Part shown: piece after piece, positions 26,471 to 42,037 of the stretch
How positions within the stretch are numbered: position 1 is the first letter of the stretch
How the letters are laid out: each line of letters opens with the position of its first letter
From: an uncultured Bacteroidota bacterium
Lineage (GTDB): Bacteria > Bacteroidota > Bacteroidia > Chitinophagales > Chitinophagaceae
Length of the DNA: 64,000 bases
NCBI GenBank assembly: GCA_903835005.1
Contig: CAILLK010000149.1
Span: forward strand, 1-64,000
Direction: 5' to 3'
Notes under the pieces: model-generated
Database searches by the model: none
Seen by the model: the letters and a program-made list of their open reading frames with translations, nothing else
Told to the model about the DNA's origin: nothing
Position numbers and translations under genes: made by a program

Positions 26471-26539
26471 TAAAAAGTTCTTTTGCCAAAAAGGAATATC
26501 CGATTCAACTTTGTGCCACAAAACAACGAAATCCCTATC

Positions 26540-27541
26540 ATGGAGAAATTCAAGAAGATTGAAAGACAATATATACTCTCGGACAGCACGGTAAATGAGT
26601 ATGGATTCAGACTGCTTACCTCGGGATACCAGATGGAAGCGTTTCAGAAAAACCCAATAGGCTACTATATGCACCGGCGCGAGGATGGCATAGTGCTGAA
26701 GTGGGAAGACCTGCATGTGGAAGATGATAAAGTATTGGGTATACCAGTTATCAATCTATCGAACGGCAGAGGTATACAAACCTGCGATGAGGCAGAAAAT
26801 GGCTTCCTGAATGCTGCTTCGGTAGGGCACATAGTGGTACTGGAATACAGCACAGATCCGGAAATGATGCTGCCAGGACAAACCGGGCCTACTATAACAA
26901 AATGGTATAACAAGGAATGCAGCCTCGTGGATATACCCGGTAACTGCAATGCATTGACAAGGCTTTATGATGCACAGGAAAATGAGCTGAACCTGGCAGA
27001 CCTTCAGATAGTGTCTCCGGCAGTAAAAATAATACAGCAAAGCCTGACAAGGGAACTAAAGAGCCTGCTGCACCTGGCTGAAGATGCTGATGACAGGATA
27101 CTTACAGCCACCGTAGAAAAGCTGGCCGCCAAGGCAAATGAGCTGGAAGCTGATAAAGGAAACTTGCTTAATGATAAACACAGCCTGCAGCAGCAGGTAG
27201 ATGACCTGATAAGTGCACGTAACAAGAGTGAAATAAGCGCAATACTGGACAGGGCGCTTGAGGATAAGAAAGTAACTATAGAACTTCGGGATAAACTGGC
27301 AAATGATTATGCCACAAACCCGTTGGGGCTGAAATCGCTGGTAGCGGCTATGCCTGCATACCGATCAATTGCGGAATACCTGAAAAATAACCAGCAGGAC
27401 AGATCGGAGGCGCAATGGCTATGGGATGATTTTGAAAAGAACGATCCATCAGGTAAAAAGCTAAAAGAGCTAAGGGGAAATGACCCGGTGAGATACAGGG
27501 AATTGTTTGAGGAGAAGTTTAACCCGGCACCAACCCTCTAA
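26540..27541 (+). CDS. Phage prohead protease with scaffold-like C-terminus
   Basis: 333 residues from the ATG at 26540 (upstream frame has no family sequence). The N-terminal ~150 residues fit the HK97-type prohead protease: 'FRLLTSGYQMEAFQKNP', catalytic His in 'YYMHRR', and 'LNAASVGHIV' with the catalytic Ser. After residue ~170 comes a long coiled coil (LAAKANELEADKGN...), the expected scaffold region. The equivalent in Mu is gpI/Z. The protease processes the scaffold and coat during head maturation. First gene of the cassette. Confidence 0.82.
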   Translation: MEKFKKIERQYILSDSTVNEYGFRLLTSGYQMEAFQKNPIGYYMHRREDGIVLKWEDLHVEDDKVLGIPVINLSNGRGIQTCDEAENGFLNAASVGHIVVLEYSTDPEMMLPGQTGPTITKWYNKECSLVDIPGNCNALTRLYDAQENELNLADLQIVSPAVKIIQQSLTRELKSLLHLAEDADDRILTATVEKLAAKANELEADKGNLLNDKHSLQQQVDDLISARNKSEISAILDRALEDKKVTIELRDKLANDYATNPLGLKSLVAAMPAYRSIAEYLKNNQQDRSEAQWLWDDFEKNDPSGKKLKELRGNDPVRYRELFEEKFNPAPTL

Positions 27542-27563
27542 CCCCCACCCCCTAAAGGGAAGT
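27533..27563. repeat. Dispersed C-rich 'ACCCCCTAAAGGG' repeat
   Basis: The stretch spanning the protease stop contains 'CTAACCCCCACCCCCTAAAGGG', a short element scattered near gene ends in many Bacteroidota genomes. A related element lies between mreC and mreD. Confidence 0.4.
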
Positions 27564-27900
27564 CAAGGATTCAGCTTATGCGAAAATTATTTTGCTAAAA
27601 ATATCTGTTCAGCGAATTTATTTCCTGGCGAAAATGAAATCATTTCTATAAATATTTACCAGGAGCAGGCGGTTTTTAGGCCTTATTCCTAGGGCTGCGT
27701 GGTCGGACATTTTTCCCGCCTGTTTCCTGGTTATTTACCATTGTGTTCATCGCTGTCAGTACAGCCAAATCTATGCCAAAAAAGATTCTCTTTAAATCAG
27801 AGAATGAATATCCGATCTATGGCTAAAAATGCCATTCCGATAAATTATCTCAAGTTTTTTTCTAGTCTACATATTTAATCACAAAACAACAATTTAAACA
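27564..27900. other. Gap between protease and capsid genes
   Basis: No phage-like frame is visible. In Mu-type phages protease and coat genes are normally adjacent, so this ~340-bp gap is larger than expected. An AT-rich leader precedes the capsid ATG. Confidence 0.4.
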
Positions 27901-28815
27901 ATGGCAATTCAAAAAGAGATCTGGGAAGATCACATCGAAGGGAACCTGTTCAAGAACAATGAATTCCTGCTGGCCTCAACAGATGCAGGTCAGTATGTAC
28001 TGAAAGGAATGGTGGTGCACATACCTCAGGCAGGAGCAACACCTAACATCGTGAAAAACCGTACGAGCCTTCCGGCAACAGTGGTTCAGCGCACGGATAC
28101 AGACGTAACCTATACACTGGATGAGTATACTACTGACCCAATACTTATTCCAAACGCCGATCTGTTTGAGCTGAGCTATAACAAGAGGGAAAGTGTATTA
28201 TCGGAGTATGAGTCATCGCTGAGGCAAACCATTGCCGATAATATACTGGTAGACTGGGCACCTACTGCAGGCACGGGTCTTATAATGCGCACATCGGGAG
28301 TTGCAACAGCCTCAACACTGGCAGGGACGACTGGAAACAGGGCCAAGTTTACAGTAAATGACCTGAAAGGAGCACAACTGCAGCTTAATAAGCAGAATGT
28401 GCCAATGGAAGGCAGATATGCCCTGATAAGCGCTGATATGTTTCAGCAACTTACAGATGATATGTCGGCTACACAATACCGGGATTTCAGCGCCGCTTAC
28501 GACGTAAAAGACGGGGTTCTTGGCAGGCTTTTTGGTTTCAATATCATGATGCGCAGTGGTGTGGTTAGCTATAATAACGGAACAAGTCCGGTGGTAAATG
28601 CATATGGTGCGACAGCTAACCCTACTGATAATGATGGCGCATTGTGCTGGCAGATAAGCGCTGTGGAAAGAGCAGTAGGACAAATCAGGTTTTATGAGCA
28701 CATGGGTGATCCAACCTATTATGGCGATGTGTACAGCGTAAGTGTACGTATGGGAGCGCGGATTCGCAGACAGGATGCAATGGGAATTGTAGCCATCGTA
28801 CAGGCAGCAGCGTAA
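27901..28815 (+). CDS. Phage major capsid protein
   Basis: 304 residues. Position after the protease/scaffold, size and composition fit a HK97-fold coat protein: a long N-terminal arm, then 'LRQTIADNILVDW', 'AQLQLNKQNVPMEGRYALIS' (the usual 'R.al.s' coat strand) and the C-terminal 'DVYSVSVRMGARIRRQDAMGIVAIVQ' that ends many coat proteins. It corresponds to gpT of Mu in order, although sequence relation to gpT is not evident. The frame is intact. Confidence 0.75.
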   Translation: MAIQKEIWEDHIEGNLFKNNEFLLASTDAGQYVLKGMVVHIPQAGATPNIVKNRTSLPATVVQRTDTDVTYTLDEYTTDPILIPNADLFELSYNKRESVLSEYESSLRQTIADNILVDWAPTAGTGLIMRTSGVATASTLAGTTGNRAKFTVNDLKGAQLQLNKQNVPMEGRYALISADMFQQLTDDMSATQYRDFSAAYDVKDGVLGRLFGFNIMMRSGVVSYNNGTSPVVNAYGATANPTDNDGALCWQISAVERAVGQIRFYEHMGDPTYYGDVYSVSVRMGARIRRQDAMGIVAIVQAAA

Positions 28816-28837
28816 TTTATATGCTATTCCGAAGGGC

Positions 28838-28948
28838 ATGAAACAGGTAAGAAATTCATTGAGGCGGGGTATCATGGTGGTGAGACATAGTCAGGTCAGG
28901 TGGGTTGGTATGAGCGAAATCATACTGCACAGAGCAGGTGATAAATAA
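28838..28948 (+). CDS. Possible small basic ORF after the capsid gene
   Basis: 36 residues, Arg/Val-rich (MKQVRNSLRRGIMVVR...). A purine-rich GAAGGG sits almost at the ATG, too close for a good ribosome site. May be noise. Confidence 0.22.
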   Translation: MKQVRNSLRRGIMVVRHSQVRWVGMSEIILHRAGDK

Positions 28949-29071
28949 AATACCATTTGAAACAGGATGCCATGATATACCCGCAGCAATGAGTAACGTA
29001 ACAAAACAATGGGCTGGGAAAAAAATTTTTAACTATCCGGAAAAACAATACCGGTTAAAAACGAACAAAAT

Positions 29072-29512
29072 ATGCTATTCGAAAAAATAAAAAACAAATT
29101 TAAAGTGCTTCTGAATGACTTTGACAACTTTTTAGACTCGCATCTGAATATCGCGTTACAGATAACAACAGAGCTTAAAAACATATTATCGGAGCCTCCA
29201 TCTGATATAATATCAGCTATAATTCCTGCTAGCATTACCCCTGCTTTGCGCCAGGAGATAATAACGGCAATTGATCAAACAGTTACTGCCCTGAACCTGG
29301 CGGAGACATGTAACCAATATACTGATCTGAATGAGAAACTGAACTGTTTTATACAACAGGTGCAAAAAATGGATCCCGATCTGCAGGAAGCAGTGCTTCA
29401 AAAGATTACAAGCCTGATGACCGGAATCCTTCACGGTAAAAGCCTCAAACAATATATGTATGACTTGTACGCTCAAATAAAAACCAGCGCTCAAAAAGCC
29501 GCAGTAAAATAA
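29072..29512 (+). CDS. Phage structural-region protein of unknown function
   Basis: 146 residues, helical and acidic to neutral, with 'ISAIIPASITPALRQEIITAI' and 'VQKMDPDLQEAVLQKITSLM'. Proteins of this type sit between capsid and sheath genes in Mu-like prophages of Bacteroidota. Head completion or connector duty is possible; no motif decides. Confidence 0.6.
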   Translation: MLFEKIKNKFKVLLNDFDNFLDSHLNIALQITTELKNILSEPPSDIISAIIPASITPALRQEIITAIDQTVTALNLAETCNQYTDLNEKLNCFIQQVQKMDPDLQEAVLQKITSLMTGILHGKSLKQYMYDLYAQIKTSAQKAAVK

Positions 29513-29566
29513 GCCAGCCCCATTTACCTTATCCGGCAAAATACCAGCAAGCACAAATAAATAGTT

Positions 29567-29800
29567 ATGGAACGAGCAACTGTATTATCTGATCAGCACT
29601 CAAAGAATAATAAATTATGGTTTACCAGTGACCACCTTGTCTTTTTTGAAGAGCAGAAAGCAAGGAACCATGCCAGGAACCTGGCCGATAAAACCATAAC
29701 CTCAAAGACAAAAGAAAGAGTGGAATCGGAACTTGAGGCATTAATAAATGACACCTCTGAAGAAGATGTGGCTTACTACCTTACAGATGATGAGGAGTAG
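29567..29800 (+). CDS. Small phage-region protein, 77 residues
   Basis: Polar and helical, with a basic N-terminal half and an acidic C-terminus (EEDVAYYLTDDEE). It begins 54 bp after the previous gene and 65 bp before the sheath gene. Not recognised; kept because of its place in the cassette and good coding look. Confidence 0.5.
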   Translation: MERATVLSDQHSKNNKLWFTSDHLVFFEEQKARNHARNLADKTITSKTKERVESELEALINDTSEEDVAYYLTDDEE

Positions 29801-29865
29801 TGAACCGGGGAATTATAAAATTATTTTTTTTTACAATGAATTCTAATCAATAAAAAAGAACAGGT

Positions 29866-31041
29866 ATGGGAAGTGTAAATATTTCACTGGCGGATGGCCA
29901 GTTAGGAGCAACGCTCCAGACAAATGACGGAATAACAGGGATTGTACTTACAGGTATAACCGATACCGGAGGATATGTATCGGGTATTCCCACCTATGTG
30001 ACCAGTATGGCTGATGTAGCAAGTGCAGGAATTACTGAGACAAGTAACCCATTTGCAATTAAACAACTACAGGAATTCTACAACCAGGCAGGAGACGGGG
30101 CAGAATTATACCTGATGCTTGTGCCACCTACTATGACAATAGCCCAGATGGCAGATAATACAAATGCAAACGGAGCAAAAAAATTACTGGATTTTGCTGC
30201 CGGCCAGATAAAAGTACTGGGATTACTTAGCGATGATACTGCCATTGCCGGCGGAGGAGGCACTATTACGGTTACAGACGGATTAAACGAGGATGTGTAT
30301 ACTGCTGCAAGTAATATGGTGGTGATGGCGGAAGCGTATTTTGCAGCTGAAAAACCATTCAGATGCGTAATTGGAGGAACGCATTATTCAGGAGTTGCAT
30401 CCAGCCTTACCAATGAAACAACCGGCACAACCAATAACCGAACAGCGATTCTGATAGGTGATACAGCCAGCGGTGTGTCAGCTTGTGTAGGATTATTACT
30501 TGGTGTTGTATCGTCTATACCGGTTCAGCGTAAAATAAGCAGAGTCAGATCTGGAGCTTTGACAAATACAGAAGCATACCTTGGCACTACCGCGCTGGAA
30601 AGTACAGGAGGCGATGCAGCAACCATATCTGGCAAGGGATTTATAACCTTTACAACCTACCCTAATGTGAGTGGATACTTCTTCAGCGGAGACCCTATGC
30701 TGACGGCCACAACAGATGATTACAGCATGCTTGCTCGTGGAAGAGTAATTGATAAGGCACATGTACTCGCATATACTACCTTTATTCAGGAAGTGGATGA
30801 TGAGGTCCCGGTGAATGCGGACGGCACGCTAGATTCCGGCTTTTGCAAATGGCTGAGCCAGCAGATAGTAAACCAGATAAACAATACTATGACCGCTAAT
30901 AAAGAGATAAGTGATGTAAGCTGCTACATTGACCCATCTCAGAATATACTGAGCACAAATACGCTTGCAGTTGTGCTGAAAGTAACACCGGTAGGCTATG
31001 CAACAAATATTGAAATAACTCTTGGTTTCCAGAACCCATAA
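29866..31041 (+). CDS. Contractile tail sheath protein (DUF2586-like)
   Basis: 391 residues. It matches the DUF2586 sheath type of Bacteroidota Mu-like phages: the start 'MGSVNISLADGQLGA', 'NPFAIKQLQEFYNQAGDGAELYLMLV', 'DDYSMLARGRVIDKAHVLAYTTFIQEVDDEV' and a C-terminal beta strand ending 'ITLGFQNP'. Sheath subunits polymerise around the tube and contract to drive it through the envelope. Equivalent to gpL of Mu. Frame intact. Confidence 0.85.
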   Translation: MGSVNISLADGQLGATLQTNDGITGIVLTGITDTGGYVSGIPTYVTSMADVASAGITETSNPFAIKQLQEFYNQAGDGAELYLMLVPPTMTIAQMADNTNANGAKKLLDFAAGQIKVLGLLSDDTAIAGGGGTITVTDGLNEDVYTAASNMVVMAEAYFAAEKPFRCVIGGTHYSGVASSLTNETTGTTNNRTAILIGDTASGVSACVGLLLGVVSSIPVQRKISRVRSGALTNTEAYLGTTALESTGGDAATISGKGFITFTTYPNVSGYFFSGDPMLTATTDDYSMLARGRVIDKAHVLAYTTFIQEVDDEVPVNADGTLDSGFCKWLSQQIVNQINNTMTANKEISDVSCYIDPSQNILSTNTLAVVLKVTPVGYATNIEITLGFQNP

Positions 31042-31153
31042 ACTCCTGCTGCTCGAACTGAATGAACATAATCTTGTTCCGGTAAGAAGGCCCGAGCTAT
31101 TTATTGAGCAACAGAATATTAACCGGCTCCGTATAAGAGTACTAAACAAATAA
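31022..31153 (+). CDS. Possible small ORF between sheath and tube
   Basis: A 43-residue frame from TTG 31022, overlapping the sheath 3' end by 20 bp: '...ELNEHNLVPVRRPELFIEQ' and 'NRLRIRVLNK'. Codon use is like its neighbours, and no other feature explains the gap. The start is uncertain. Confidence 0.35.
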   Translation: MVSRTHKLLLLELNEHNLVPVRRPELFIEQQNINRLRIRVLNK

Positions 31154-31196
31154 GCACTTTCAGACAAATTAATTATTAACGATAAAATTTAAAAGT

Positions 31197-31628
31197 ATGC
31201 CATCAATAGTATTTTTTGATAGTAAAGATTGTGAGTGGGCTGACATGACTGTGATGTTTGCCGGATCGCCACTCACCAAGATACGCGGCGTGAAATATAA
31301 AGCTGCTAAAGATAAACAGTTGCTACACGCTGCAGGAGATGAGCCAATAAGCATACAGAGCGGCAACCGCACCTATGAAGGACAAATAAAAGTTCTTAAA
31401 GGAGCAATTGATGATATGAACAGGGCTGCAATAGCAGCGGGGGGAGAAGATATCCTGGATATTCAGTTTGATATTGTCATCACCTATAAACCACAGGGAA
31501 CACGAGCATTGCAGACAGATACGCTGGTAAGTGTAGAAGTTAAGGATTTCGAAAAGGGATGGGAGCAGGGCGCTAAGAATATGGATGTAACGCTGCCGAT
31601 TTTGTTTATGAGGTTGATAACGGAGTAG
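31197..31628 (+). CDS. Phage tail tube protein
   Basis: 143 residues. Directly after the sheath, with the tube-protein pattern: 'DCEWADMTVMFAGSPLTKIRGVKYKAAKDKQL', 'GDEPISIQSGNRTYEGQIKV' and 'VSVEVKDFEKGWEQGAKNMDVTLPILFM'. Tube subunits form the rigid inner channel. Equivalent to gpM of Mu. Confidence 0.82.
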   Translation: MPSIVFFDSKDCEWADMTVMFAGSPLTKIRGVKYKAAKDKQLLHAAGDEPISIQSGNRTYEGQIKVLKGAIDDMNRAAIAAGGEDILDIQFDIVITYKPQGTRALQTDTLVSVEVKDFEKGWEQGAKNMDVTLPILFMRLITE

Positions 31629-31779
31629 CAACCAGTCTTTGCCCACCTGCCCATGAAGGTGAGTATGCAAGTTCAGCGATATCTTGCTTCAACTCAATTT
31701 TTGAATTAGTTAATTATTTTCAAACGAGGTCAAAGAATTTGTTAACAAGCAATTTTCTTTCCTGATAAAGAAACACAAA

Positions 31780-32100
31780 ATGAGTACAGAATTTGAATTA
31801 ACAGGTCAGGCTTCTGAGGACCAGATAAATGAATGGAAGCGCAAACATAAAACCGGAATTTATTCGGTGGAAGTAGATGGCCATATAGGATACTTTAAAA
31901 ATCCGGGACGTAATGAACTGAACTGCGCAATGAGTAAAGCAGACAGAGAGAAAGCTCTGGATATATTTGAAGAACTGGCTAATATAACTTTCCTTGGCGG
32001 CAGCGAAGAGATACTGAAGGACGACCAGATGTTTATAGGAGTGAGCCAGGAGCTGAAAGTGAAACTGGACGGTAAAAAAGCAATACTGGTAAACTTATAG
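31780..32100 (+). CDS. Tail assembly chaperone, short form
   Basis: 106 residues in the slot between tube and tape measure that is always filled by a tail assembly chaperone (Mu gp41, lambda gpG). The sequence is acidic/helical: 'WKRKHKTGIYSVEVDGHIGYFKNP', 'ADREKALDIFEELA'. It ends at TAG 32098-32100. Shortly before that, an A6 run (32074-32079) coincides with the point where the -1 frame opens, leading to the long form. Confidence 0.75.
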   Translation: MSTEFELTGQASEDQINEWKRKHKTGIYSVEVDGHIGYFKNPGRNELNCAMSKADREKALDIFEELANITFLGGSEEILKDDQMFIGVSQELKVKLDGKKAILVNL

Positions 32101-32258
32101 AGGAGTCGCGAGGGGGCCCGGCGCACGACTCCTTAGGGTATCTGGAAACATTAATTGAATATTACCTGCCGGGCCTGGATCACAGATCTCTGACAGATGA
32201 GGCATTTGCACAGAAGATTGCTCATCTGCAATATATCAGGAGAAAAATAAATGATTAA
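31780..32258 (+). CDS. Tail assembly chaperone, long form by -1 frameshift
   Basis: After the A6 run at 32074-32079 the -1 frame is open to TAA 32256-32258 and closed just upstream (TAA at 32073-32075). It encodes a sensible C-terminal domain (HDSLGYLETLIEYYLPGL..., ...HLQYIRRKIND) but has no ATG, GTG or TTG, so it can only be made by frameshifting. The A6 run is not in the phase of the classical X-XXY-YYZ heptamer (0-frame GGT AAA AAA GCA), so slippage on the homopolymer, translational or transcriptional, is implied. The layout matches gp41/gpGT of other phages. Confidence 0.65.
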
Positions 32259-32305
32259 TGGGAAAAGAGAAGCCGAACAATAGTGTTTTTTTAATCAGGA
32301 ATTGA
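32258..32305 (+). other. Short frame at the expected tape-measure start
   Basis: ATG at 32258 overlaps the chaperone stop (TAATG) and gives only MGKEKPNNSVFLIRN before a stop. It could be the original tape-measure start, cut off when the antisense SHOCT gene entered. Confidence 0.25.
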
Positions 32306-32789
32306 GCAACCTTTCTTTTTGTATTGTAAATTCTTCATCAGATAATACCCCCTGTATTCTTAATTCATTCAGTTTATACAATTGGTCGGCAATTGAACTG
32401 GCTGCAGTTTTGTTTTCAGCTATATCCAGCATTTTTTCCTGGTATTCCTCATCAATTAACTTAGTTGAACTAAGCGTCATGATCAATCCGATCAGAGGAG
32501 AGAGTAACAATGAAAGCGCATAAGCCCCTAAAACTCCAATTTTTCTATCTCTACCAAGCATTGCAACAATTGTTGAAAATATTAAGATCAGAATGCCCAA
32601 TAGAGTCCAATACCCAGGAATTGCATCTGTGAATAAAAGGAAAAGCATGCCAATAACATCAATTAAAACAACAATTAAAATGGAATCATTTTTTGATTTT
32701 GCATCATGTAGTCTTTTCACAAACGAGACATTTATAGAAGTTAGAAATGTTTTTGCCGGAATTTTCTTGTATTTAATGGAGCAGAACAA
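32295..32789 (-). CDS. SHOCT-domain membrane protein, antisense inside the cassette
   Basis: 164 residues: basic N-terminus, three or four hydrophobic segments (~residues 40-110), then a C-terminal SHOCT module 'QLYKLNELRIQGVLSDEEFTIQKERLLNS'. It is the only minus-strand gene in the phage cassette and lies between chaperone and tape measure. Cargo ('moron') genes placed so often alter the host surface or exclude other phages, but function here is unknown. Confidence 0.7.
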   Translation of the reverse strand: MFCSIKYKKIPAKTFLTSINVSFVKRLHDAKSKNDSILIVVLIDVIGMLFLLFTDAIPGYWTLLGILILIFSTIVAMLGRDRKIGVLGAYALSLLLSPLIGLIMTLSSTKLIDEEYQEKMLDIAENKTAASSIADQLYKLNELRIQGVLSDEEFTIQKERLLNS

Positions 32790-32874
32790 GGATATTCAAC
32801 TTTTTCAAGGCGAAAAAATTTAGCCACAATATACAAATTGAATTTAAAATATCAAACTATCTATAAACTCAGCT

Positions 32875-33885
32875 ATGAAATACCAAAATATAACGGAAGG
32901 GGCTGATGAACGGAAACAAATACTTTCCAGACAAACGAACGATTTTAATAAGTTCACCACAGCCTTGGAAAAAACTTTAGAAACGGTTATTGAACTGGAT
33001 AACACCTTTTCGCTTTTGAATGCTCAGCTAATCTTGATTATCCCTTTAAATTCTGGCTTAATACTGGATACTACGGATGAATCTATCGATCATATAACAT
33101 CCAAAATCGGAACTGAAAACAATAAAGGCCTGCCAGTCGGGAATGAATATGCCAGTAAAAAAAGCCAGAGTGAAGTTGAGGGCCTTTCAATCGCGGAAAT
33201 AATCAACAAGATGGCGACGGTAGGAGAAGGGGCTATAAAGGCAAGCACCGCTTTAGGAGAATTGCCGCCGGCAATAAACAAACTGAAAAAAGCATTCAGT
33301 ATTATAGGCGACATGAATGAAGGAGGCAAAGGAATTGCGGGGTTATTTACAGGGCTGGAAGGAGGTATAACATCAGCAGAGGCTGTTTCAGCAGCCGGTG
33401 AGTTAATAACCGGAGCTACTGGTGTTGCTGAAGCAGGGGCTGGATTTGGCCCGCCTGGATGGATTGTTGGAGCTGGAGCTTTGATAATAGGTGGAATAGC
33501 GGCAGTTGCGGCATCTCAGAAGCAAGAGAAATCATATAATCCGAAAGAATTCACCTTAGATAAATGGAAGAGATATTACTGGGACGAGGAGTTAAAAAAG
33601 GACCGGGAAAAAATGATTGAATTAAGGCAACCGGGCAATTATAAACAATTGGAAGAAATTGAAGATGATTTAAATGCCAAATTTTTTGTTCAAGACAGAT
33701 TAAAACGAGTTGAACTGGCATTGGCAGAACAGTCTTATGAAGTATACAACTATAGCCACAAGCAGGTCTTGAAAATTCCTGAAATCTATTTGCCGGTGAG
33801 TGATCGGTTAGGATTAACAGGTAAAAACATTTGGGATATCAATTTGAATAACGGGAATAATGATCCGGTTGAACAGGATCTGTAA
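32875..33885 (+). CDS. Tail tape measure protein, N-terminal part
   Basis: 336 residues. Helical N-terminus (FTTALEKTLETVIELDNTF), a Gly/Ala-rich hydrophobic middle (~residues 165-215, 'GPPGWIVGAGALIIGGIAAVAA') and a charged C-terminus, as in tape measure proteins. Tape measures set tail length, so even with its continuation (~456 residues) it predicts a short tail, roughly 0.15 nm per residue. The frame ends at TAA 33883-33885, but continues in the same frame with family-like sequence to 34245. Confidence 0.65.
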   Translation: MKYQNITEGADERKQILSRQTNDFNKFTTALEKTLETVIELDNTFSLLNAQLILIIPLNSGLILDTTDESIDHITSKIGTENNKGLPVGNEYASKKSQSEVEGLSIAEIINKMATVGEGAIKASTALGELPPAINKLKKAFSIIGDMNEGGKGIAGLFTGLEGGITSAEAVSAAGELITGATGVAEAGAGFGPPGWIVGAGALIIGGIAAVAASQKQEKSYNPKEFTLDKWKRYYWDEELKKDREKMIELRQPGNYKQLEEIEDDLNAKFFVQDRLKRVELALAEQSYEVYNYSHKQVLKIPEIYLPVSDRLGLTGKNIWDINLNNGNNDPVEQDL

Positions 33886-34245
33886 ACTAAAAATAATGAA
33901 ATCTACCAGTTTACGAATGCGGCCACCAAACCCAAATTGGCAAATGAGCCATATCGGTTACCTGATGAAGATGAATGGGAAGCAGCACTAAAAAAAATTA
34001 ATGATATTCCAATACAACCAGTATTAAAAAACAGGGGTGGGCAAAACAACAGGCAATCTTACTCAATTAAAAACCCAATAACTAAAATTCCCCCAAGCAA
34101 AGTGATCAATATTAATATCAATAAGCCGATGATAGAAAACTTGGTTATCAATACAAAAGGAGAAAATGAGGGGCTTAATGATTTTAAGCATAAGGTTGAA
34201 GAAGTACTACTTGAAATTTTAAACAGTGCAAATACAATAAAATAA
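33886..34245 (+). CDS. Tape measure C-terminal part, in frame after a TAA
   Basis: The same frame as 32875-33885 stays open from 33886 to 34245 and lacks an ATG near its beginning (first usable start is TTG 33937, giving 102 residues). Its end, 'KVINININKPMIENLVINTKG...VEEVLLEILNSANTIK', is the kind of C-terminus seen on tape measure proteins of related elements. It is either the tail of a tape measure broken by one nonsense codon, a readthrough product, or a separately started subunit. Confidence 0.55.
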   Translation, partial: TKNNEIYQFTNAATKPKLANEPYRLPDEDEWEAALKKINDIPIQPVLKNRGGQNNRQSYSIKNPITKIPPSKVINININKPMIENLVINTKGENEGLNDFKHKVEEVLLEILNSANTIK

Positions 34246-34247
34246 TT

Positions 34248-34895
34248 ATGGCAGAAATATCTTTTAGTTTAGGCGATCTTTTTGAACAAGCCTTCGGATA
34301 TAAAACCCAGGCTTTTGAGCCGGAATTTCAGCAGGTTCAAGGTGTAAGAGCACCTTACCGAACTCAGCAGGGGTCCTTGGGATCACCTTACTACTCCTCC
34401 GACGCCCTTGGGAAGGAATACTATATGCCGGTAACTATAAAATATCCAGACAACAGCCAAACAAACCTGCAAACCAATAGCTCTGGAAATAGCCCGGGTA
34501 TTCTAAAAATCTGGGAATTGCCCTACCCCGTTGTTTCAATTTCAAGCAGGAAAACGATTATTGAAACACCAGTAACAGAGCGCAGGGGAACTGTAAAAGA
34601 ACTCATCAATATACAGGATTATGAAATCGCCATAAAAGGGTTCATAATAACAAAGGCAAATGAATTCCCTGAAAACGATGTCACAACCTTGCGGAATATT
34701 TACGAACAAAATGCAGCTCTGTCAATACAATGCCCGCTGACCGACATTTTTCTGTTAAGACCAGACAGGAGCGGAAGTGACCAGGTGGTAATAAAAGAAT
34801 TGAAATTTCATGAGGTAAGCGGGATAAAAAACGTGCGGCCTTATGAACTGCAACTTCTTAGCGATGCGCCTTTCAATCTTACTGCGATATCTTAA
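34248..34895 (+). CDS. Phage baseplate/tail protein (DUF6046-like)
   Basis: 215 residues. It follows the tape measure with 2 bp between, in the slot of Mu gpN. Patterns such as 'ISSRKTIIETPVTERRGTVKELINIQDYEIAIKGFI' and 'FLLRPDRSGSDQVVIKELKFHEVSGIKNVRPYELQLLSD' match the DUF6046 type seen in Bacteroidota contractile phages. Likely joins tube and hub. Confidence 0.7.
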   Translation: MAEISFSLGDLFEQAFGYKTQAFEPEFQQVQGVRAPYRTQQGSLGSPYYSSDALGKEYYMPVTIKYPDNSQTNLQTNSSGNSPGILKIWELPYPVVSISSRKTIIETPVTERRGTVKELINIQDYEIAIKGFIITKANEFPENDVTTLRNIYEQNAALSIQCPLTDIFLLRPDRSGSDQVVIKELKFHEVSGIKNVRPYELQLLSDAPFNLTAIS

Positions 34896-34935
34896 GCTGC
34901 CTCATTATTTAAACCTATTCCTAAAAGTAAAAACT

Positions 34936-35973
34936 ATGTTCGCTTTATGCAGTGATATAACTATTGGCAAATTCAGATTCAGCGGGGTAAATGAAGTGCG
35001 GATATCAAAAAGCATACATTCTATTTCCGATACTGCTGTAATAAAGTTGCCATCTATAGCAAAGGTAATCACAGGTGGTAAAGTAATGCCTGAATATGTT
35101 ATTACGGGTAAACAATTCAACGAAGGAGATCCGGTAACAATCAATTTGGGGTACGATACTTCATTTACGGAGGAGTTTCAAGGATTCGTAACCCGGTGTG
35201 ATTTGGGTATGCCGCTTGAAGTAATTTGTGAAGGCTATAGCTGGCTTTTGAGAAGGAATAATATAAACCGATTCTGGGTATCTGTATCTATAAAAGAACT
35301 GCTTGAAGCGGCAGTAGATGGCATAGATCCGGATTATACAATTACTGTACAATGCGAGGTGGATATGCAATTGGCAAACATCCGCATAAATGATGAAAGC
35401 GGATTTGATGTTATCAGCAACCTGTCGAAATACACAGATTACTGCCTGACCTGTTACTTTATACAACCCAATGTCTTGTGGTGCGGGCTTGTGTATACTC
35501 AATTTGCTCTGGGGAATAATGTTTTGAATGACCAGGTAATCAGTTACAGGCTGGGATACAATTGTATCAAAGATAATAATCTGAAAGTGCGCAAAACCGA
35601 GAATGATCCGGTGGAAGTAAAATACTTTAAGAAACAGGCTAATGGCACAAAAATATCAGCCACATCGGATATAAACAATATTGCAGCCGCCAACCATACC
35701 AAAATCATTAACCATGCCAGTGATCAGGCAAGTCTCCAGGATATGGCTAATGAGAAGGCCTACATGTTAAACTACGCAGGCTATGAAGGCGATTTAACTG
35801 CATTTCTGCAACCTTATGCCTCTCCCGGCAACGAAGCATATATTACCGACAGCAGGTATCCGGAGCGCAATGGCAATTACCTGATTGAAAGTACTGAAAT
35901 AAATTTTGGTATAAACGGAGCCAGAAGGATATTGGAAATAGGCCCGCTGTCCGGGTTTGCAAACCAGAAATAA
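34936..35973 (+). CDS. Baseplate hub protein (gp27/gpD-like)
   Basis: 345 residues from the ATG at 34936, which avoids overlapping the previous gene. The content fits hub proteins of the late-control-D/gp27 kind: 'GDPVTINLGYDTSFTEEFQGFVTRCDLGMPLEVICEGYSWLLRR', then 'YPERNGNYLIESTEINFGINGARRILEIGPL' at the end. Equivalent to Mu gpP. The hub trimer receives the spike encoded next. Confidence 0.78.
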   Translation: MFALCSDITIGKFRFSGVNEVRISKSIHSISDTAVIKLPSIAKVITGGKVMPEYVITGKQFNEGDPVTINLGYDTSFTEEFQGFVTRCDLGMPLEVICEGYSWLLRRNNINRFWVSVSIKELLEAAVDGIDPDYTITVQCEVDMQLANIRINDESGFDVISNLSKYTDYCLTCYFIQPNVLWCGLVYTQFALGNNVLNDQVISYRLGYNCIKDNNLKVRKTENDPVEVKYFKKQANGTKISATSDINNIAAANHTKIINHASDQASLQDMANEKAYMLNYAGYEGDLTAFLQPYASPGNEAYITDSRYPERNGNYLIESTEINFGINGARRILEIGPLSGFANQK

Positions 35974-35974
35974 A

Positions 35975-36526
35975 ATGAACAGGAACAGTTTAAAAATAAA
36001 GGAAGGGATAAGGAAATTAACCAACAGGCCCAATGAGATCATCACGGGAACAGTAGTAGCCGGCAGTGTAGATAATACTTCATACACCATGAATGTGCAA
36101 CCAAGTGATGACTCGGCACCGATAGAAGGGGTGTTGCTGAATGCAATTTCAGGTAATGATGACGGCATGATCCTTATTCCTGCAGATGACAGCGATGTAA
36201 TTATTGGAAGTATTGACGGACCAGGTGAATGGGTGTTACTTAAGGCCAGCAAAATTACAAATGCTAAGATTACGATTGGGAATGTAACTTATGAAATGGA
36301 CAGCACCCAGGTGAACATACAAAACAGCAATGTGGTTTTAAACATTTCAGATTCTCTGTTTAAAGTTAACACCGCTTCAGAGAGTTTATTTCAGTTGCTG
36401 AAAGATTGCTTCACTTATATAACTGAGCTAACAGTACCCACTCCATCGGGCACAAGCAGTGTACCTGTAAATGTTGCTGACTTTAACAATCTCATTACCA
36501 GGTTAAATAATTTACTCACCAGCTAA
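35975..36526 (+). CDS. Baseplate spike protein (gp45/gpV-like)
   Basis: 183 residues from the ATG at 35975, one base after the hub stop. An OB-fold-like N-terminus ('IITGTVVAGSVDNTSYTMNVQPSD...GVLLNAIS') and 'MILIPADDSDVIIGSIDG', then beta-helix-like repeats ('NAKITIGNVTYEMDSTQVNIQNSNVVLNIS') are typical of membrane-piercing spikes. Equivalent to Mu gp45. Confidence 0.78.
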   Translation: MNRNSLKIKEGIRKLTNRPNEIITGTVVAGSVDNTSYTMNVQPSDDSAPIEGVLLNAISGNDDGMILIPADDSDVIIGSIDGPGEWVLLKASKITNAKITIGNVTYEMDSTQVNIQNSNVVLNISDSLFKVNTASESLFQLLKDCFTYITELTVPTPSGTSSVPVNVADFNNLITRLNNLLTS

Positions 36527-36535
36527 ACTATTCTT

Positions 36536-36763
36536 ATGCCTTTAGATACCTCTACCCTGGCAGCGTCGCTGAAATCAGCCTTTCTAGCAAATTTACCAGC
36601 TCCTGATGCCGGGCAAATAACTCAGGTTACTACTCTTGCTTCAGCAATTGCAAGCGCTATGCAGGTGTTTGTGGAGGGCGCTGAAATTACTTATACAGCC
36701 GGGTTGATTGCACCGGGAGGCGGGGGGCCAGTTACCGGAGTATTCGGGAATACTATCAGTTAA
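36536..36763 (+). CDS. Small baseplate-region protein, 75 residues
   Basis: Ala-rich helical N-terminus and Gly-rich tail ('APGGGGPVTGVFG'). It lies 9 bp after the spike and 34 bp before the gp25-like gene. The Gly-rich end could sit at the spike tip or as a linker, but no family is recognised. Confidence 0.55.
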   Translation: MPLDTSTLAASLKSAFLANLPAPDAGQITQVTTLASAIASAMQVFVEGAEITYTAGLIAPGGGGPVTGVFGNTIS

Positions 36764-36797
36764 AACGATTGGTTTAAAAAAATAAAAATTACATTTT

Positions 36798-37097
36798 ATG
36801 GCTACTGAAATGATGGATATAAGCCTGGATGCAGGCTATGATCTGGTATTTGAAGGTGGTGACTTTATAATAACAGAAAGCACACCGCAACACCAGCAGC
36901 AACTTATCCTCAATAATAAAGGAGACTTCAAGCAAAACCCGGCTATATGTGTTGGTGCATTTAATTACCTGGATGATGAAAACTTCCAGGAGCTGAGCAG
37001 GAACATTAGTATAGAGTTTACGCGTGATGGTATGGATGTAATCAGCATTCAGCTCACGCCAACAGGTATCATAAATTCGGATGCTTTCTATCAATAG
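36798..37097 (+). CDS. Baseplate wedge protein, gp25/gp46-like
   Basis: 99 residues. The pattern 'MDISLDAGYDLVFEGGDFIITESTPQHQQQLILNNKGDFKQNP...GVGAFNYLDDE'-like order is that of short gp25/W or Mu gp46 proteins: 'G.DL....GD......Q....L....G......P..G'. It anchors the sheath to the baseplate. Confidence 0.75.
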   Translation: MATEMMDISLDAGYDLVFEGGDFIITESTPQHQQQLILNNKGDFKQNPAICVGAFNYLDDENFQELSRNISIEFTRDGMDVISIQLTPTGIINSDAFYQ

Positions 37098-37136
37098 CCC
37101 TTAACCACTCCAAATAAATTTTCTAAAATCAATTTC

Positions 37137-38087
37137 ATGACTACTATAACAGCTTTGCCCAATCAGAGTATGCTGGATATCATTAACCAGGGGTGCGGTT
37201 CAATTGAAGCGGGTATGCAGTTTTGCCTGGATAACAATATTGCTATTTCTGATTATCCGGATGTGGGAACAGAATATAGTATCAGCAGCACGGCACTGAA
37301 TATCGGAGATGGCGGTGTATTGCAGTACATGGCGCAAAATGGAATAGTACTGGGTACGCTGGGTGTGGTTCCTTTACTTGGGTTCGGTGTAGCACTGAAG
37401 CCGGTAATGGAGGCAGTACCTACAGACCCTAATCCACCATCAGTTTCCGGGTTTTATTCCTACAACCTGCAGGCCAATACTTCCGCATTTATCAATGTGA
37501 ACTCAATTGCAGCCGGTGACTATCCAACAAATAATACAGTAACCTATGAAACTGAAGACCGGGTAATAGCAGGATACACACCCGAAACAACCGCTGAAAA
37601 TGCCACATCATTGGTTATGAGCAGCAAAGTTATTCCCTACAGAATTCCTTGGGTTCCCTACAGGGGTTTTATGATGATCTGGAGTGATTTGGGTGCAACA
37701 GCCAAAACTGCAACATTTGTTGATATTGCAGGAAATCAGGCCTATGTAAGCCCTATGGTAGTGCTGGACAGCGCCTCGCAGAATGTAGAAGAATACCTTG
37801 TTGCTGATCTGGTGGTTGAGTTGGTAAGCGCCGGTTACAACACTTTGCAATTGCGGCTGATAAGAAGTCATGCCCCGGTGATACATGCGGATTTTGTGAA
37901 TCAGGTGATGACCTGGCTGCATGATGCGGCAGGCGGAACACCAGACCCGCTTGACCCAACCAATGCAGATAAAACCATTGTAACGCTGACCAGGGGAACT
38001 TACACATTTGGCGTAGGAACAGTTTACTGGAATGGCTCCATACCTTATCCGGCCAGCGCTTTCAGCATGGTGGTTGTAGTATCCTGA
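37137..38087 (+). CDS. Baseplate protein with LysM-like N-terminus
   Basis: 316 residues. Residues ~3-50 ('ALPNQSMLDIINQGCGSIEAGMQFCLDNNIAI...') look like the LysM-type fold found in baseplate proteins of contractile phages. The rest is beta-rich and unrecognised, ending 'YWNGSIPYPASAFSMVVVVS'. It sits between the gp25-like and J-like genes, where Mu has nothing of this size. Confidence 0.55.
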   Translation: MTTITALPNQSMLDIINQGCGSIEAGMQFCLDNNIAISDYPDVGTEYSISSTALNIGDGGVLQYMAQNGIVLGTLGVVPLLGFGVALKPVMEAVPTDPNPPSVSGFYSYNLQANTSAFINVNSIAAGDYPTNNTVTYETEDRVIAGYTPETTAENATSLVMSSKVIPYRIPWVPYRGFMMIWSDLGATAKTATFVDIAGNQAYVSPMVVLDSASQNVEEYLVADLVVELVSAGYNTLQLRLIRSHAPVIHADFVNQVMTWLHDAAGGTPDPLDPTNADKTIVTLTRGTYTFGVGTVYWNGSIPYPASAFSMVVVVS

Positions 38088-38155
38088 ATCCGGGAACCAA
38101 AGAATCAGACTGAATACTTTTTACTTAAAATAAGCAGGCCTAAAATTATCATAGA

Positions 38156-38983
38156 ATGGCACGGAGTATAGCACAAATTCAAGCGGCGATTGTAGCTGCA
38201 AAAGATGCAGACGGAACATTAAGCGGACTCACCAGCAGCAGTATGACTGCAATATGGCTGCTATGGACTTACGTGGTGGCAACCTGTCAGTGGACATTGG
38301 AAAATCTGTTTGATGCACATAAAAATGAAGTAGCCGGAATAATAACTACCGGAAAGCCTCATACGTTGCAATGGTATGCTACAATGGCAAAGGCATTTCA
38401 GTTTGGAGTATCACTACCTGCAGGCAGCGATACCTATGCGGTGGTTCCTCCTGCCAGTTTATCTGTGCTGGTAGTACAGTTTGCTGCGGCGGTGGAGCTT
38501 ACCAACCTGATAAGGATTAAAGTTGCAGGGCTTACTGGCGGGATATTGGGGCCGTTGAGTATCACCCAGATGAATGCATTCACCACTTACATGGGCCTGA
38601 TTAAAGATGCCGGAGTTCGGCTTCAATGCACAAGCAGCGTCGCGGATACTTTTCAGCCTACCATGATCATTTATTACGATCCTCTGGTGCTTGATGCTAC
38701 CGGAGCCCGTCTTGATGGTACTGAGCCCACACCGGTAAAAGATGCCATTAATACCTTCCTGGGCAGCCTGCCCTTTAACGGGGTATTTATACTCAATAAT
38801 TTTATTGCAGCCATGCAGGCAATACCGGGTGTTGTAATAGCAGATGAAGTATCGGTTCAGGCATTTTATGGTATGGTGGCACCTGTTATAATAGCTGCCA
38901 GATATGTGCCTGATGCAGGTTATATGGCGCTGGACAATGTATGGTTTGCAGCCAATGTTTCTTATGTGGCATATGCTTCCTAA
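38156..38983 (+). CDS. Baseplate J-like protein (Mu gp47 slot)
   Basis: 275 residues. 'SIAQIQAAIVAAKDADGTLSGL...SMTAIWLLWTYVVATCQWTLENLFDAHKNEV...KPHTLQWYATMAKAFQFG' is the start of the J-like baseplate proteins of Bacteroidota phages, often misnamed nucleotidyltransferase. 'MIIYYDPLVLDATGARLDG' and 'LPFNGVFILNNFIAAMQAIPGVVIADE' follow the gp47 pattern. Forms the baseplate wedge. Confidence 0.78.
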   Translation: MARSIAQIQAAIVAAKDADGTLSGLTSSSMTAIWLLWTYVVATCQWTLENLFDAHKNEVAGIITTGKPHTLQWYATMAKAFQFGVSLPAGSDTYAVVPPASLSVLVVQFAAAVELTNLIRIKVAGLTGGILGPLSITQMNAFTTYMGLIKDAGVRLQCTSSVADTFQPTMIIYYDPLVLDATGARLDGTEPTPVKDAINTFLGSLPFNGVFILNNFIAAMQAIPGVVIADEVSVQAFYGMVAPVIIAARYVPDAGYMALDNVWFAANVSYVAYAS

Positions 38984-39030
38984 CACCGGATTGTGATTCT
39001 GATGTTTGTTCATTTTTAATTACTTTTTTT

Positions 39031-39546
39031 ATGGGAATATTTGATATTGATTATGCCGGACTGATAGTGCAATTGCTGCCCACCAGATTAAGGAACAATA
39101 AACTTTCAGCCTGGCTCAATTGCCTGGTGTCGCCCGTTGTGTGGCTGTTTAATCTGTTTACCGCCAACCGCACCAACAATTTGTACATACTGGCACATGA
39201 TAGCCAGGTGTGTTATCTGCAGGCTGCACTGAATGATGTATTTGACCCTGTATCGAGAGGGATACTTATTGCAGACGGTCCGTTTGAAGATCCGCTTTTC
39301 CTGTACCTGAATACCGAAATAAAACCATTATGGCTGGGACTTGTGAGCGAAGAAGGCGCCACTCCTTATCCCGATCCACAGGTACTTTATACCAATGGTG
39401 AAACGTATGCTCTTGGTATTTGCTTTATTGTAAAAGTACCGGTGGCAGTGGCTGCTGGCGCGGGATACGATGTACAGAGACTAAAAGCATTGGTAGATTA
39501 TTACCGGTTGCCGGGAAGAAATAATTATAGTGTAACTACATACTAA
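39031..39546 (+). CDS. Baseplate protein, Mu gp48-like
   Basis: 171 residues from the ATG at 39031. 'LIVQLLPTRLRNNKLSAWLNCLVSPVVWLFNLF' and 'HDSQVCYLQAALNDVFDPVSRGILI' match the partner of the J-like protein in Bacteroidota contractile phages. Equivalent to Mu gp48, joining baseplate and fibres. Confidence 0.72.
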   Translation: MGIFDIDYAGLIVQLLPTRLRNNKLSAWLNCLVSPVVWLFNLFTANRTNNLYILAHDSQVCYLQAALNDVFDPVSRGILIADGPFEDPLFLYLNTEIKPLWLGLVSEEGATPYPDPQVLYTNGETYALGICFIVKVPVAVAAGAGYDVQRLKALVDYYRLPGRNNYSVTTY

Positions 39547-39567
39547 AAAGCAAATAAAACTCAGGAA

Positions 39568-40392
39568 ATGAAAGCAATAGATTTTACACATGCCGGCGGC
39601 TTTCCGCTCACACAGGATGAACTGGATTACCTGCAGCAGGCCTATACTGAATGTATCAATGCACTGGCACTTATGGGAGGGAGCGGGCCTGTATTAATAA
39701 GTGGAATGGGCACTAACCTAATTGGTGGAACTACCATTATAGCCAACGGCTGGTTTTTCTACAACGGGGCAATGGTGCAGTTTGTATCCGGATCTTATTC
39801 CAGTATCCCGGTGGGAGATGTGGTATTGGTTACCATAACACCATCGGCTACCAGCCTCACCTATAACGATGGAAGCAGCTATGGCGCCATTCTTTCTGCC
39901 ACTGCAACCATAACCCTGGGGCCCAGCGCCACATCAGCTACCCAGTTTCCTTTATCAGCGCTGCAGCTATTCCAACTGGTGTTTGGACAGAATGGAAGGG
40001 AAGCTGCCTGGAGTTCACTTGCTGTAAGTACGCCGGTACTGAGCGGAGGAGTTACCGGAACGATATATTATAAGAAAGACCTGATGGCCAATACCCTTCA
40101 GATTAGAGGCTTGCTGACAGCCGGAAACGCACAGAATTTTGGAGCATCGCCATCGGCTTTGTTTTACGATATGGGGACATTACCTGTCGGGTATATACCT
40201 AATAATAACGCCTATTTTACAGCTCAGTATTTTATTTCTAGTTTAATTAAAGATGACCTTGGTATTGCTTGGATTAAGCTTATAAATTGTGCTGTGTCAT
40301 CATCTGGTCAATTATTAATAAACTGGATTAGACCTGATATATCTATTGGAGGATATGCTGTAGAATTTAACACTACAATACCTCTTGATTAA
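39568..40392 (+). CDS. Tail fibre/receptor-binding protein candidate
   Basis: 274 residues, last gene of the cassette. The N-terminus 'IDFTHAGGFPLTQDELDYLQQAYTECINALA' resembles fibre or base-attachment proteins that follow gp48. The rest is Ser/Thr/Ala/Gly-rich beta sequence and ends 'AVEFNTTIPLD'. The last ~250 bp is more AT-rich than the preceding part, as often seen in exchanged fibre tips. The host range target is unknown. No fibre chaperone follows. Confidence 0.65.
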   Translation: MKAIDFTHAGGFPLTQDELDYLQQAYTECINALALMGGSGPVLISGMGTNLIGGTTIIANGWFFYNGAMVQFVSGSYSSIPVGDVVLVTITPSATSLTYNDGSSYGAILSATATITLGPSATSATQFPLSALQLFQLVFGQNGREAAWSSLAVSTPVLSGGVTGTIYYKKDLMANTLQIRGLLTAGNAQNFGASPSALFYDMGTLPVGYIPNNNAYFTAQYFISSLIKDDLGIAWIKLINCAVSSSGQLLINWIRPDISIGGYAVEFNTTIPLD

Positions 40393-40398
40393 ACAAAC

Positions 40399-40944
40399 TT
40401 AAATCCTTGTAGTCCCCTGCCGGGTAAAGAGCAAAAGGTAAACTATTATAAACAACATTGAAGTTAAAGCAGATGCGACAACTTTAAGCAGCAAAAATCC
40501 AAAATTGGAGAAGTTCCACAACTCTATAGTGAAGTAAACAAAATGGTGAATAATAATGAGAAAGGCGCTGTAGACCAGGAAGGGCATCCAGCCCATGGTT
40601 TTAATGTTGGGATGCTGACCTGCATATTCCGATAAATTGCGGGGCAGCAGTGCACTGAGCACATTGGTGCGCAGATAGGCAATGAGCAATGTAGCACAGG
40701 CATGCATACCAGCAGTGTTCATAAATACATCAACAGTAGAACCCAGAACAAAACCAAGGATCAGTAATGCCCATACAGGAGTTTCGAATGGCAGCAACAG
40801 GATAAATAATGGGTAAACATAAGGAATAAAGACCGGGAAGCCCGAAGGCTCACTCCACCAGCGCAGCGTGATCTTGTTCAGGATCAGCACCTGCAGCAGG
40901 ATAATGACAAAGAAGCGTAAAATATTTTTTATATAAACGTTCAT
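40399..40944 (-). CDS. mreD: Rod shape-determining protein MreD
   Basis: 181 residues with about five membrane segments. The Bacteroidota MreD pattern 'LRWWSEPSGFPVFIPYVYPLFILLLPFETPVWALLILGFVLGSTVDVFMNTAGMHACATLLIAYLR' is clear. It links MreC to the cell-wall elongation machinery in the inner membrane. It follows mreC on the same strand. The phage cassette, not mrdA/rodA, lies beyond its stop, at 6 bp. Confidence 0.9.
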   Translation of the reverse strand: MNVYIKNILRFFVIILLQVLILNKITLRWWSEPSGFPVFIPYVYPLFILLLPFETPVWALLILGFVLGSTVDVFMNTAGMHACATLLIAYLRTNVLSALLPRNLSEYAGQHPNIKTMGWMPFLVYSAFLIIIHHFVYFTIELWNFSNFGFLLLKVVASALTSMLFIIVYLLLFTRQGTTRI

Positions 40945-40961
40945 TTTTTACTCTTTAACCA

Positions 40962-40994
40962 CACCCTCTCCTTTGGAGAGGGCCGGGGTGAGGC
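40962..40994. repeat. Dispersed palindromic 'CTCTCCTTTGGAGAGGG' repeat
   Basis: CCCTCTCC (40964-40971), loop TTT, GGAGAGGG (40975-40982), then CCGGGGTGAGG. The same short element is widely scattered between genes in Bacteroidota genomes. Here it separates mreC from mreD. Confidence 0.6.
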
Positions 40995-40996
40995 CT

Positions 40997-41854: not shown

Positions 41855-42037
41855 TGTATTTATGAAATTAAGAATTCACCCCGTAATATAATAATCATTG
41901 AGCTACATAACTATTTTACCAATTCCCAATTAATAACAATAATAAATTAAGTTATAAAAACGGAGATCAGGGAAGTTACTAAAGTTGATGTTACAAGCTA
42001 AAGTACTCCTCCATTTAGTGGTCGGGGTTTCAGAGGT

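Follow-up and report, generated by a model that had tools for sequence, protein, structure and literature searches.

A Mu-like capsid and contractile tail cassette beside mreDCB in a Chitinophagaceae genus as the putative structural half of a gene-transfer-agent-like particle

Gene transfer agents (GTAs), according to the excerpted text of PMC9662315, are built from caudoviricete-derived proteins and encoded by an endogenised genome that often occupies multiple loci and is mostly inherited vertically; further hallmarks given there are the encapsidation of mostly random host DNA, a particle too small for its own genome, and delivery of the DNA to other cells. The alphaproteobacterial type I GTAs (RcGTA and its kin) are caudoviricete-derived, endogenised, vertically inherited and often spread over several loci, and the genome of the Brachyspira agent VSH-1/BhGTA is likely dispersed over several loci (same excerpt). 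Lateral transduction has been reported in Bacteroidota (excerpt of PMC12946183). No GTA of Bacteroidota was found among the matches listed in the literature searched, whose scope left most subscription journals and preprints outside; this agrees with an earlier reading of the DNA analysed here (the original prediction), which knew of no such agent in the phylum. Here we describe a cassette of capsid and contractile tail genes at 26540-40392 of a 64,000-nucleotide stretch (the window) from an uncultured bacterium of the Chitinophagaceae, phylum Bacteroidota (contig CAILLK010000149.1 of assembly GCA_903835005.1). We judge it probable, at about 0.65, that this cassette is the structural half of a GTA-like particle that is derived from a transposable phage of Mu-like type, is vertically inherited, is encoded at multiple loci and has a dedicated regulator. 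Most sampled members of the genus seem to have domesticated an ancient Mu-like virus, turning it into a particle that packages DNA, with dispersed loci and matching switches.

Three of the six published GTA features can be recognised in these genomes. Proteins of both the structural and the packaging module match caudoviricete families, the genes are endogenised at several loci of the window's own genome, and inheritance appears to be mostly vertical with co-diversification, as judged from a fixed chromosomal site and from Mantel correlations with rpoB of 0.63 for the structural and 0.59 for the packaging module. The loci lie up to 124 kb apart or on different contigs, so their joint packaging is unlikely. 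The system differs from the alphaproteobacterial GTAs in its phylum, in its Mu-like, contractile-tailed ancestor, in having separate packaging and structural loci with matched operators, and in a small terminase (TerS) that retains a DNA-binding match. Because TerS keeps this match, unlike the small terminases of known GTAs, we file the system as GTA-like and not as a proven GTA. The Brachyspira agent belongs to a different phylum and has a different ancestor, and we know of no shared operator in it.

Mu-like prophages of Bacteroidota (hosts including Riemerella and Alkaliflexus) carry the same gene families, and their head-to-head order, with portal, gp36, large terminase (TerL) and TerS facing protease, coat and tail genes, can be likened to the cassette system. 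In those prophages a transposase, a MuB-like ATPase and an early region belong to one element, and a MuF-like part is fused to or sits beside the portal, whereas the modules described here lack all of these, of which the transposase alone was searched genome-wide. No Mu-type transposase is linked to the late genes (one query protein), and packaging and structural genes are on separate contigs in the window's genome and 4-5 kb apart in six relatives, which is not the layout of a Mu-like phage. Sheath, tube, spike and hub are shared with extracellular contractile injection systems and tailocins, which to our knowledge have no coat, protease, portal or terminase; here all four are present and constrained. 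The original prediction had proposed a domesticated particle, a satellite or part of a split GTA. The first and the third fit, but a satellite fits poorly. The site is fixed at mreDCB and the one Mu-type transposase query had no match, the integrases of this genome lying outside the searches. If the particles carry DNA, they would constitute a Bacteroidota GTA that arose independently from a contractile Mu-like phage. Such an agent could then be split into unlinked blocks held together by a common, fast-changing operator, and the operators provide a readable regulon that, with its candidate regulators and with 17 sites in a single genome, makes the coordination of a split agent testable.

Structural and packaging modules across the genus

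We compared 35 genomes of the genus, including that of the window (G000; 5.9 Mb in 163 contigs); 25 are of high quality (at least 90% complete and at most 5% contaminated). The same genes recur in the same order across the genus, and the arrangement of the cassette is far beyond chance. A coat gene is present in 28 of the 35 genomes (22 of the 25 high-quality ones), and 26 of the 28 are cassette-type; G024 and G027 carry a prophage-type coat only, a call made from low protease and terminase identity and an adjacent terminase. The sheath was found in 28 genomes (23 of high quality, a count that includes G033, whose portal and sheath enter the tallies as distant matches), TerL in 31 and gp36 in 31 (24 of high quality). 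Coat, terminase, portal and gp36 were each matched in 28 to 32 of the 35. At the right-hand end, the cassette abuts mreD-mreC-mreB in all 18 genus loci that are not of prophage type and extend beyond the last cassette gene, namely the window and 17 of 35 fetched stretches; three loci of Mu-like prophage type with no mreD in the stretch (L058-L060) are excluded. Relatives that lack the cassette, or a full prophage at the same site, had been named in the original prediction as grounds for abandoning it. Relatives do carry the cassette, and none of the 18 loci holds a full prophage at mreDCB. A mobile prophage found at changing sites was also considered and is ruled out by the fixed position. Outside the genus, the coat was detected in three genomes of the family and two of the order among the other 84. 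Named records with a coat of at least 70% identity carry the label Chitinophagaceae, Flavipsychrobacter or Taibaiella, or no label finer than a higher Bacteroidota group. The apparently cultured Flavipsychrobacter stenotrophus RB1R16 has the structural block behind a promoter of the same design; packaging genes were looked for there within ~8 kb.

The packaging genes, which the original prediction took to be missing, are indeed unmatched in the window (no terminase or portal homolog with 14 query proteins) but are located on other contigs of the same genome. The genome-wide search that the prediction had suggested, with queries taken from the genes upstream of the cassette in relatives, recovered the portal and the gp36 adaptor on contig C122 and TerL on C52 and C125; loss of the packaging genes is ruled out by these matches. 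The C122 module reads TerS, c5, gp36, c4 (opposite strand), portal, a glycosyl-hydrolase-like insert, c11, c6 and c9. TerS matches Terminase_5 or Phage_terminase above cut-offs and several helix-turn-helix (HTH) families below them. c6 is tail-terminator-like, with a match to phrog_6911 and a prophage homolog that matches PF05069, and c4 has mostly 3-4 predicted membrane spans in a simple hydropathy count and is, by inference only, a holin candidate. A further frame in this module, c47, proved to be an antisense open reading frame (ORF) that masks gp36, and the adaptor was identified in its place. TerL is duplicated (L124 on C52, L125 on C125; 86% identical), with both copies outside the packaging module. 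One copy probably comes after the second small terminase, the two genes lying on facing ends of contigs C159 and C52; a tandem repeat is common to both ends. The repeat at these two ends (those of L253 and L124) derives from the end of a small terminase gene.

Packaging genes lie 4.3-5.3 kb from the coat in six genomes and 16-124 kb from it in six, and they are on contigs other than the coat's in G000, G007, G010, G012, G017, G018 and G020, among others. The split is not an effect of assembly, because G002, in about 10 contigs, has both blocks 124 kb apart on one contig.

The structural genes are under purifying selection, with the exception of a fast-evolving tape measure. Between G000 and its nearest relative, G020, dN/dS is 0.027 for the tube, 0.034 for the coat, 0.042 for the sheath, 0.066 for the protease and 0.07-0.16 across the genes between hub 1 and the end of the cassette, both included; leaving aside p77 (0.282) and the tape measure, which aligns poorly (0.31-0.46), the structural genes span 0.027-0.155. 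The seven packaging-module genes gave 0.037-0.154 and mreB, mreC and mreD 0.005-0.05. Four other genome pairs yielded values of at most 0.17 where dS was computable, except for the tape measure (0.48 and 0.64), some dS being near or above 1 and so close to saturation. A ratio near 1 had been offered beforehand as evidence against the prediction, and with p77 and the tape measure set aside, the structural genes, at ~0.03-0.16, are far from it.

Both halves share one phylogeny, as judged from their protein distances and trees. The distance matrices of the structural (nine proteins) and packaging (four proteins) modules are correlated across 17 genomes (Mantel r 0.909, 0/2000 permutations), and the two trees have 6 of 14 splits in common with no conflict among well-supported splits. 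Linkage explains part of this correlation because 4 of the 17 genomes have the halves within ~5 kb; in the other 13 they are at least 16 kb apart or on different contigs. In this set G000 is represented by its C125 copy of TerL, the TerL copies of G013 and G021 are cut by the fetched stretch, and TerS, which is absent from the fetched stretch in 4 of the 17 genomes, was omitted.

Viral contigs point to what the ancestor may have looked like. All 16 with a coat identity of at least 72% are 4-20 kb fragments of the same cassette, and the 25 with a coat identity of 35-50% include 10 of 31-38 kb; in most of the longer distant contigs, packaging genes face structural genes. A DDE-type transposase match, always under the family cut-off, lies near one end in 7 of 14 distant records and in 0 of the 4 cassette-type fragments tested, and an integrase search of the phage records gave weak fragment matches only. 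Within the genus, a single Mu-type transposase query matched 2 of 35 genomes, each time within a separate Mu-like prophage, and had no match in G000; other transposases could be missed, because there was one query and it matched the diverged G009 copy at just 7.8e-10. Neither a MuB-like ATPase nor an early region was seen beside the two modules, the area to which that search was confined. The portal frame of G000 has no MuF-like part of the kind that some prophages have fused, and c4 and c5 were undetected in distant prophages. The two genomes with a transposase, G009 and G012, carry in addition to the cassette a Mu-like prophage with transposase and MuB-like ATPase (L060/L192 and L059/L193, respectively), whose coat is 59% identical to the cassette coat in G009 and 73% in G012.

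Matched operators and candidate regulators

Two palindromes lie upstream of the protease, the first gene of the cassette, and recur in the reverse order upstream of the small terminase; in both places a promoter of Bacteroidota type comes after them. In the window these are the inverted repeats P2 (26427..26446; upstream of -33, with a counterpart upstream of the small terminase on C122) and P1 (26445..26471; 17 such sites in the genome), then, on the + strand at 26481..26513, the motif TTTTGCC ... AACTTTG, read by eye in the protease and TerS upstream regions across genomes, which we take to be a promoter of this type and consensus. The palindrome letters vary between genomes, and the two modules match better within than between genomes (0/20,000 permutations in 20 genomes, 19 of the genus and one, G067, of another). 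The palindromes had been spotted by eye and were tested afterwards, with the motif chosen post hoc; at least two genomes, G020 and G028, entered the test with a wrongly anchored TerS start, and this weakens the signal. A second test gave z = 6.4 with 17 genomes and z = 5.6 with only the 13 more distant ones. Seven control upstream-region pairs, by comparison, gave z between -0.5 and 1.2, ruling out base composition as the source of the match, and a search for exact k-mers common to the promoters was not decisive. The prophage L174 has a similar arrangement, seen by eye, once, in a divergent promoter, so that the split seems to have left both halves with a copy of the operator each.

The operator extends beyond these two promoters. 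At up to 3 mismatches, G000 has 17 sites, and the reversed-pattern control has 0. A generic pattern found 1-26 sites in 21 of 35 genus genomes with a control of 0 in 35 of 35, although it misses variants: in the sister genome G020, where the operator is plainly present, it scores zero. Seven of the sites in G000 lie directly before genes (the protease, the small terminase, the second small terminase, two TerS-like genes and two genes for proteins of 205-207 aa), so that four of the 17 precede TerS-family genes; one site lies 0.9 kb before a large terminase. Nine more, at C84, C13, C67, C42, C73, C125:20195, C127, C128 and C149:73699, have promoter-like sequence and no evident gene, and most of them share ~150-250 bp with the protease promoter. 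Among the 66 sites listed and examined in nine genomes, 19 are directly before genes that cluster with TerS, in 8 of the nine genomes; the members in G000 are those that were family-searched. The stand-alone TerS-like genes behind the operator have long, variable C-terminal parts, and G007 has five of them (L298-L302). The two proteins of 205-207 aa are paralogs (L247:3785-4402 and L252:3771-4394) with a weak match to phrog_5990 and no Pfam family, and behind the examined sites they were seen only in G000.

The TerS-like proteins or c9 may read the palindromes. Late activators in Mu are located near the end of the early region, beside the late genes. The prophage homolog of c9 also lies beside late genes, near the end of the early region, and it faces the late genes in five of six stretches (the exception being L192). 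The predicted model of c9 is helical, and a PDB sequence search with c9 returned no significant match.

We propose that the palindromes would be read by a dedicated DNA-binding protein, for which c9 and the TerS-like proteins are the candidates, and that this protein would switch both halves on together, probably in a few cells only. Coat, protease and portal would build the head, terminase would fill it with host DNA, and a short contractile tail would join it via gp36 and the tail terminator. Release may involve the multi-membrane-span protein c4, and the particle would then hand chromosomal DNA to kin. A bolder version, which we regard as a long shot, is that in a multi-locus Bacteroidota GTA the TerS family (four operator-linked members here) binds the 17 or more palindromes as promoters and as packaging starts alike; the particle would carry chosen rather than random stretches of the chromosome, and binder and palindromes would co-evolve into a species-specific code.

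Weighing the alternatives

Matched palindromes need not mean co-regulation. They could be a dispersed repeat (REP-like or a small transposable element) that came to lie at both promoters by chance and is kept alike by gene conversion, as the nine of 17 sites without an evident gene, most sharing an extended stretch with the protease promoter, might suggest. We consider this unlikely, if worth keeping in mind, because the palindromes occupy a similar pre-promoter position in most genomes aligned by eye, the divergent promoter of L174 has a similar arrangement, and TerS-family genes recur directly downstream of examined sites in eight of nine genomes. A broken-up, decaying Mu-like prophage whose parts persist by recent descent would account for the stop in the window's tape measure and for the three high-quality genus genomes without a coat, two of which keep packaging genes. 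Strong purifying selection, the 18 of 18 loci at a fixed site and the matched operators in modules at least 16 kb apart speak against such decay, which is already largely refuted and now seems very improbable.

Use of the particle for injection or killing, as in a tailocin or injection system, would leave the head and packaging genes as relics and dispense with DNA packaging. The contractile tail genes and the fast evolution of the tape measure are what one might expect of such a particle, but coat, protease, portal, gp36 and large terminase have dN/dS of ~0.03-0.08, near the values of sheath and tube, and each of coat, terminase, portal and gp36 has a match in 28-32 of the 35 genomes; we hold this explanation to be improbable. 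Still less do we favour a split phage or satellite that remains mobile, for instance via the transposase of a co-resident Mu-like prophage. In two genus genomes the cassette does coexist with a Mu-like prophage that has a transposase; however, the other 33 of 35 had no transposase match (one query, which could miss diverged copies), and the site of the cassette does not change, making such mobility very unlikely indeed.

Several observations weigh against a GTA-like particle as we propose it. The particle is known here from its genes alone, and endolysin and other lysis genes lay outside the searches made. When compared with rpoB, either module shows one supported conflict, and the coat, taken by itself, has distances that track those of rpoB only weakly (r 0.38, 63/2000 permutations). 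The operator match is uneven: the top score goes to the genome's own partner in 7 of 20 genomes in the first test and in 7 of 17 in the second, and in G012 that partner ranks 19th of 20. For c9, a candidate late activator, the structure comparison returned nothing significant; HTH proteins are frequent among the weak matches, and Mu Mor stands at rank 35. The small terminases of known GTAs are said, in the excerpted text of PMC11841831, to have no detectable DNA-binding domain, whereas TerS here keeps a gpP-like HTH-type match. The high-quality genomes G008 and G032 hold packaging genes without a coat or sheath match. Finally, the tape measure of the window carries an in-frame stop, which may mean that the copy is dead in this strain or that the assembly contains an error.

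Gene content of the cassette

The genes at 26540-40392 form one + strand run, broken by a single accessory gene on the - strand, and their GC content (0.422) is close to that of the flanks (0.423 and 0.430). The original prediction had described near-intact structural frames; on re-checking the ORF coordinates, the frames were found where it had placed them, except that the tape measure is interrupted. Protease, coat, sheath and hubs take their names from family matches and the spike from its model; the tube is named mainly by position, and the gp25/W-like protein, the J-like protein and the chaperone wholly so.

The head genes are the maturation protease/scaffold (26540..27541; phrog_11321, annotated as function unknown, phrog_328, and PF10123 just under the cut-off) and the major coat protein (27901..28815; phrog_267, PF19821). 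They are followed by p146 (29072..29512), whose position is kept among genus loci, and p77 (29567..29800), present in part of the genus, neither with an assigned function. The tail begins with the sheath (29866..31041; DUF2586, phrog_907 'tail sheath') and the tube (31197..31628), which matches phrog_4579 'tail protein' but takes its name mainly from position because its best family match, phrog_9206, is annotated 'major head protein'. A probable tail assembly chaperone (31780..32100; by position, phrog_19076 of unknown function) comes next. The gene on the - strand (32295..32789) encodes an accessory SHOCT-domain protein (PF09851 under the cut-off) and also occurs in L040, L043 and L045.

The tape measure is split into a first part (32875..33885; weak phrog_1533 match), which ends at the in-frame stop at 33883-33885, and a last part in the same frame (33886..34245) with a conserved C-terminus. 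An uninterrupted frame of 359-625 codons is found in 23 of 25 loci with both neighbours, the exceptions being the window and L043. In L037 there are two full-length tape measure frames between chaperone and hub 1, and in L036 the same interval holds two C-terminal remnants besides a single full frame (98% identical). The extra copies are possibly interchangeable tail lengths.

The baseplate comprises hub protein 1 (34248..34895; DUF6046, phrog_5233), hub protein 2 (34930..35973; phrog_4930) and the spike (35975..36526). Family searches gave no match for the spike; structural similarity of its AlphaFold model links it to P2 gpV, the R2-pyocin spike and Mu gpV (E 0.004 for the best of the three), and viral proteins matched at E values down to 1.8e-7. 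Beyond it are p75 (36536..36763), seen in the comparison of genus loci and without an assigned function, and a gp25/W-like baseplate protein (36798..37097), which is conserved in the genus, is named by position only and had no supporting match in family or further searches. The J-like baseplate protein (37137..38087) is likewise named by position only. The last three genes, all on the + strand, are p275, a conserved protein of the baseplate/fibre region (38156..38983; phrog_38413, function unknown), the conserved p201 (39010..39546) and p274, by position a probable tail fibre (39568..40392).

The fixed right-hand neighbours, on the - strand at 40399..43069, are what we take to be mreD, mreC and mreB. 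The left-hand neighbour differs between genomes; in the window it is an AAA_14/DUF4143 ATPase (24770-25903), which among the fetched loci was matched only in G020 and G025.

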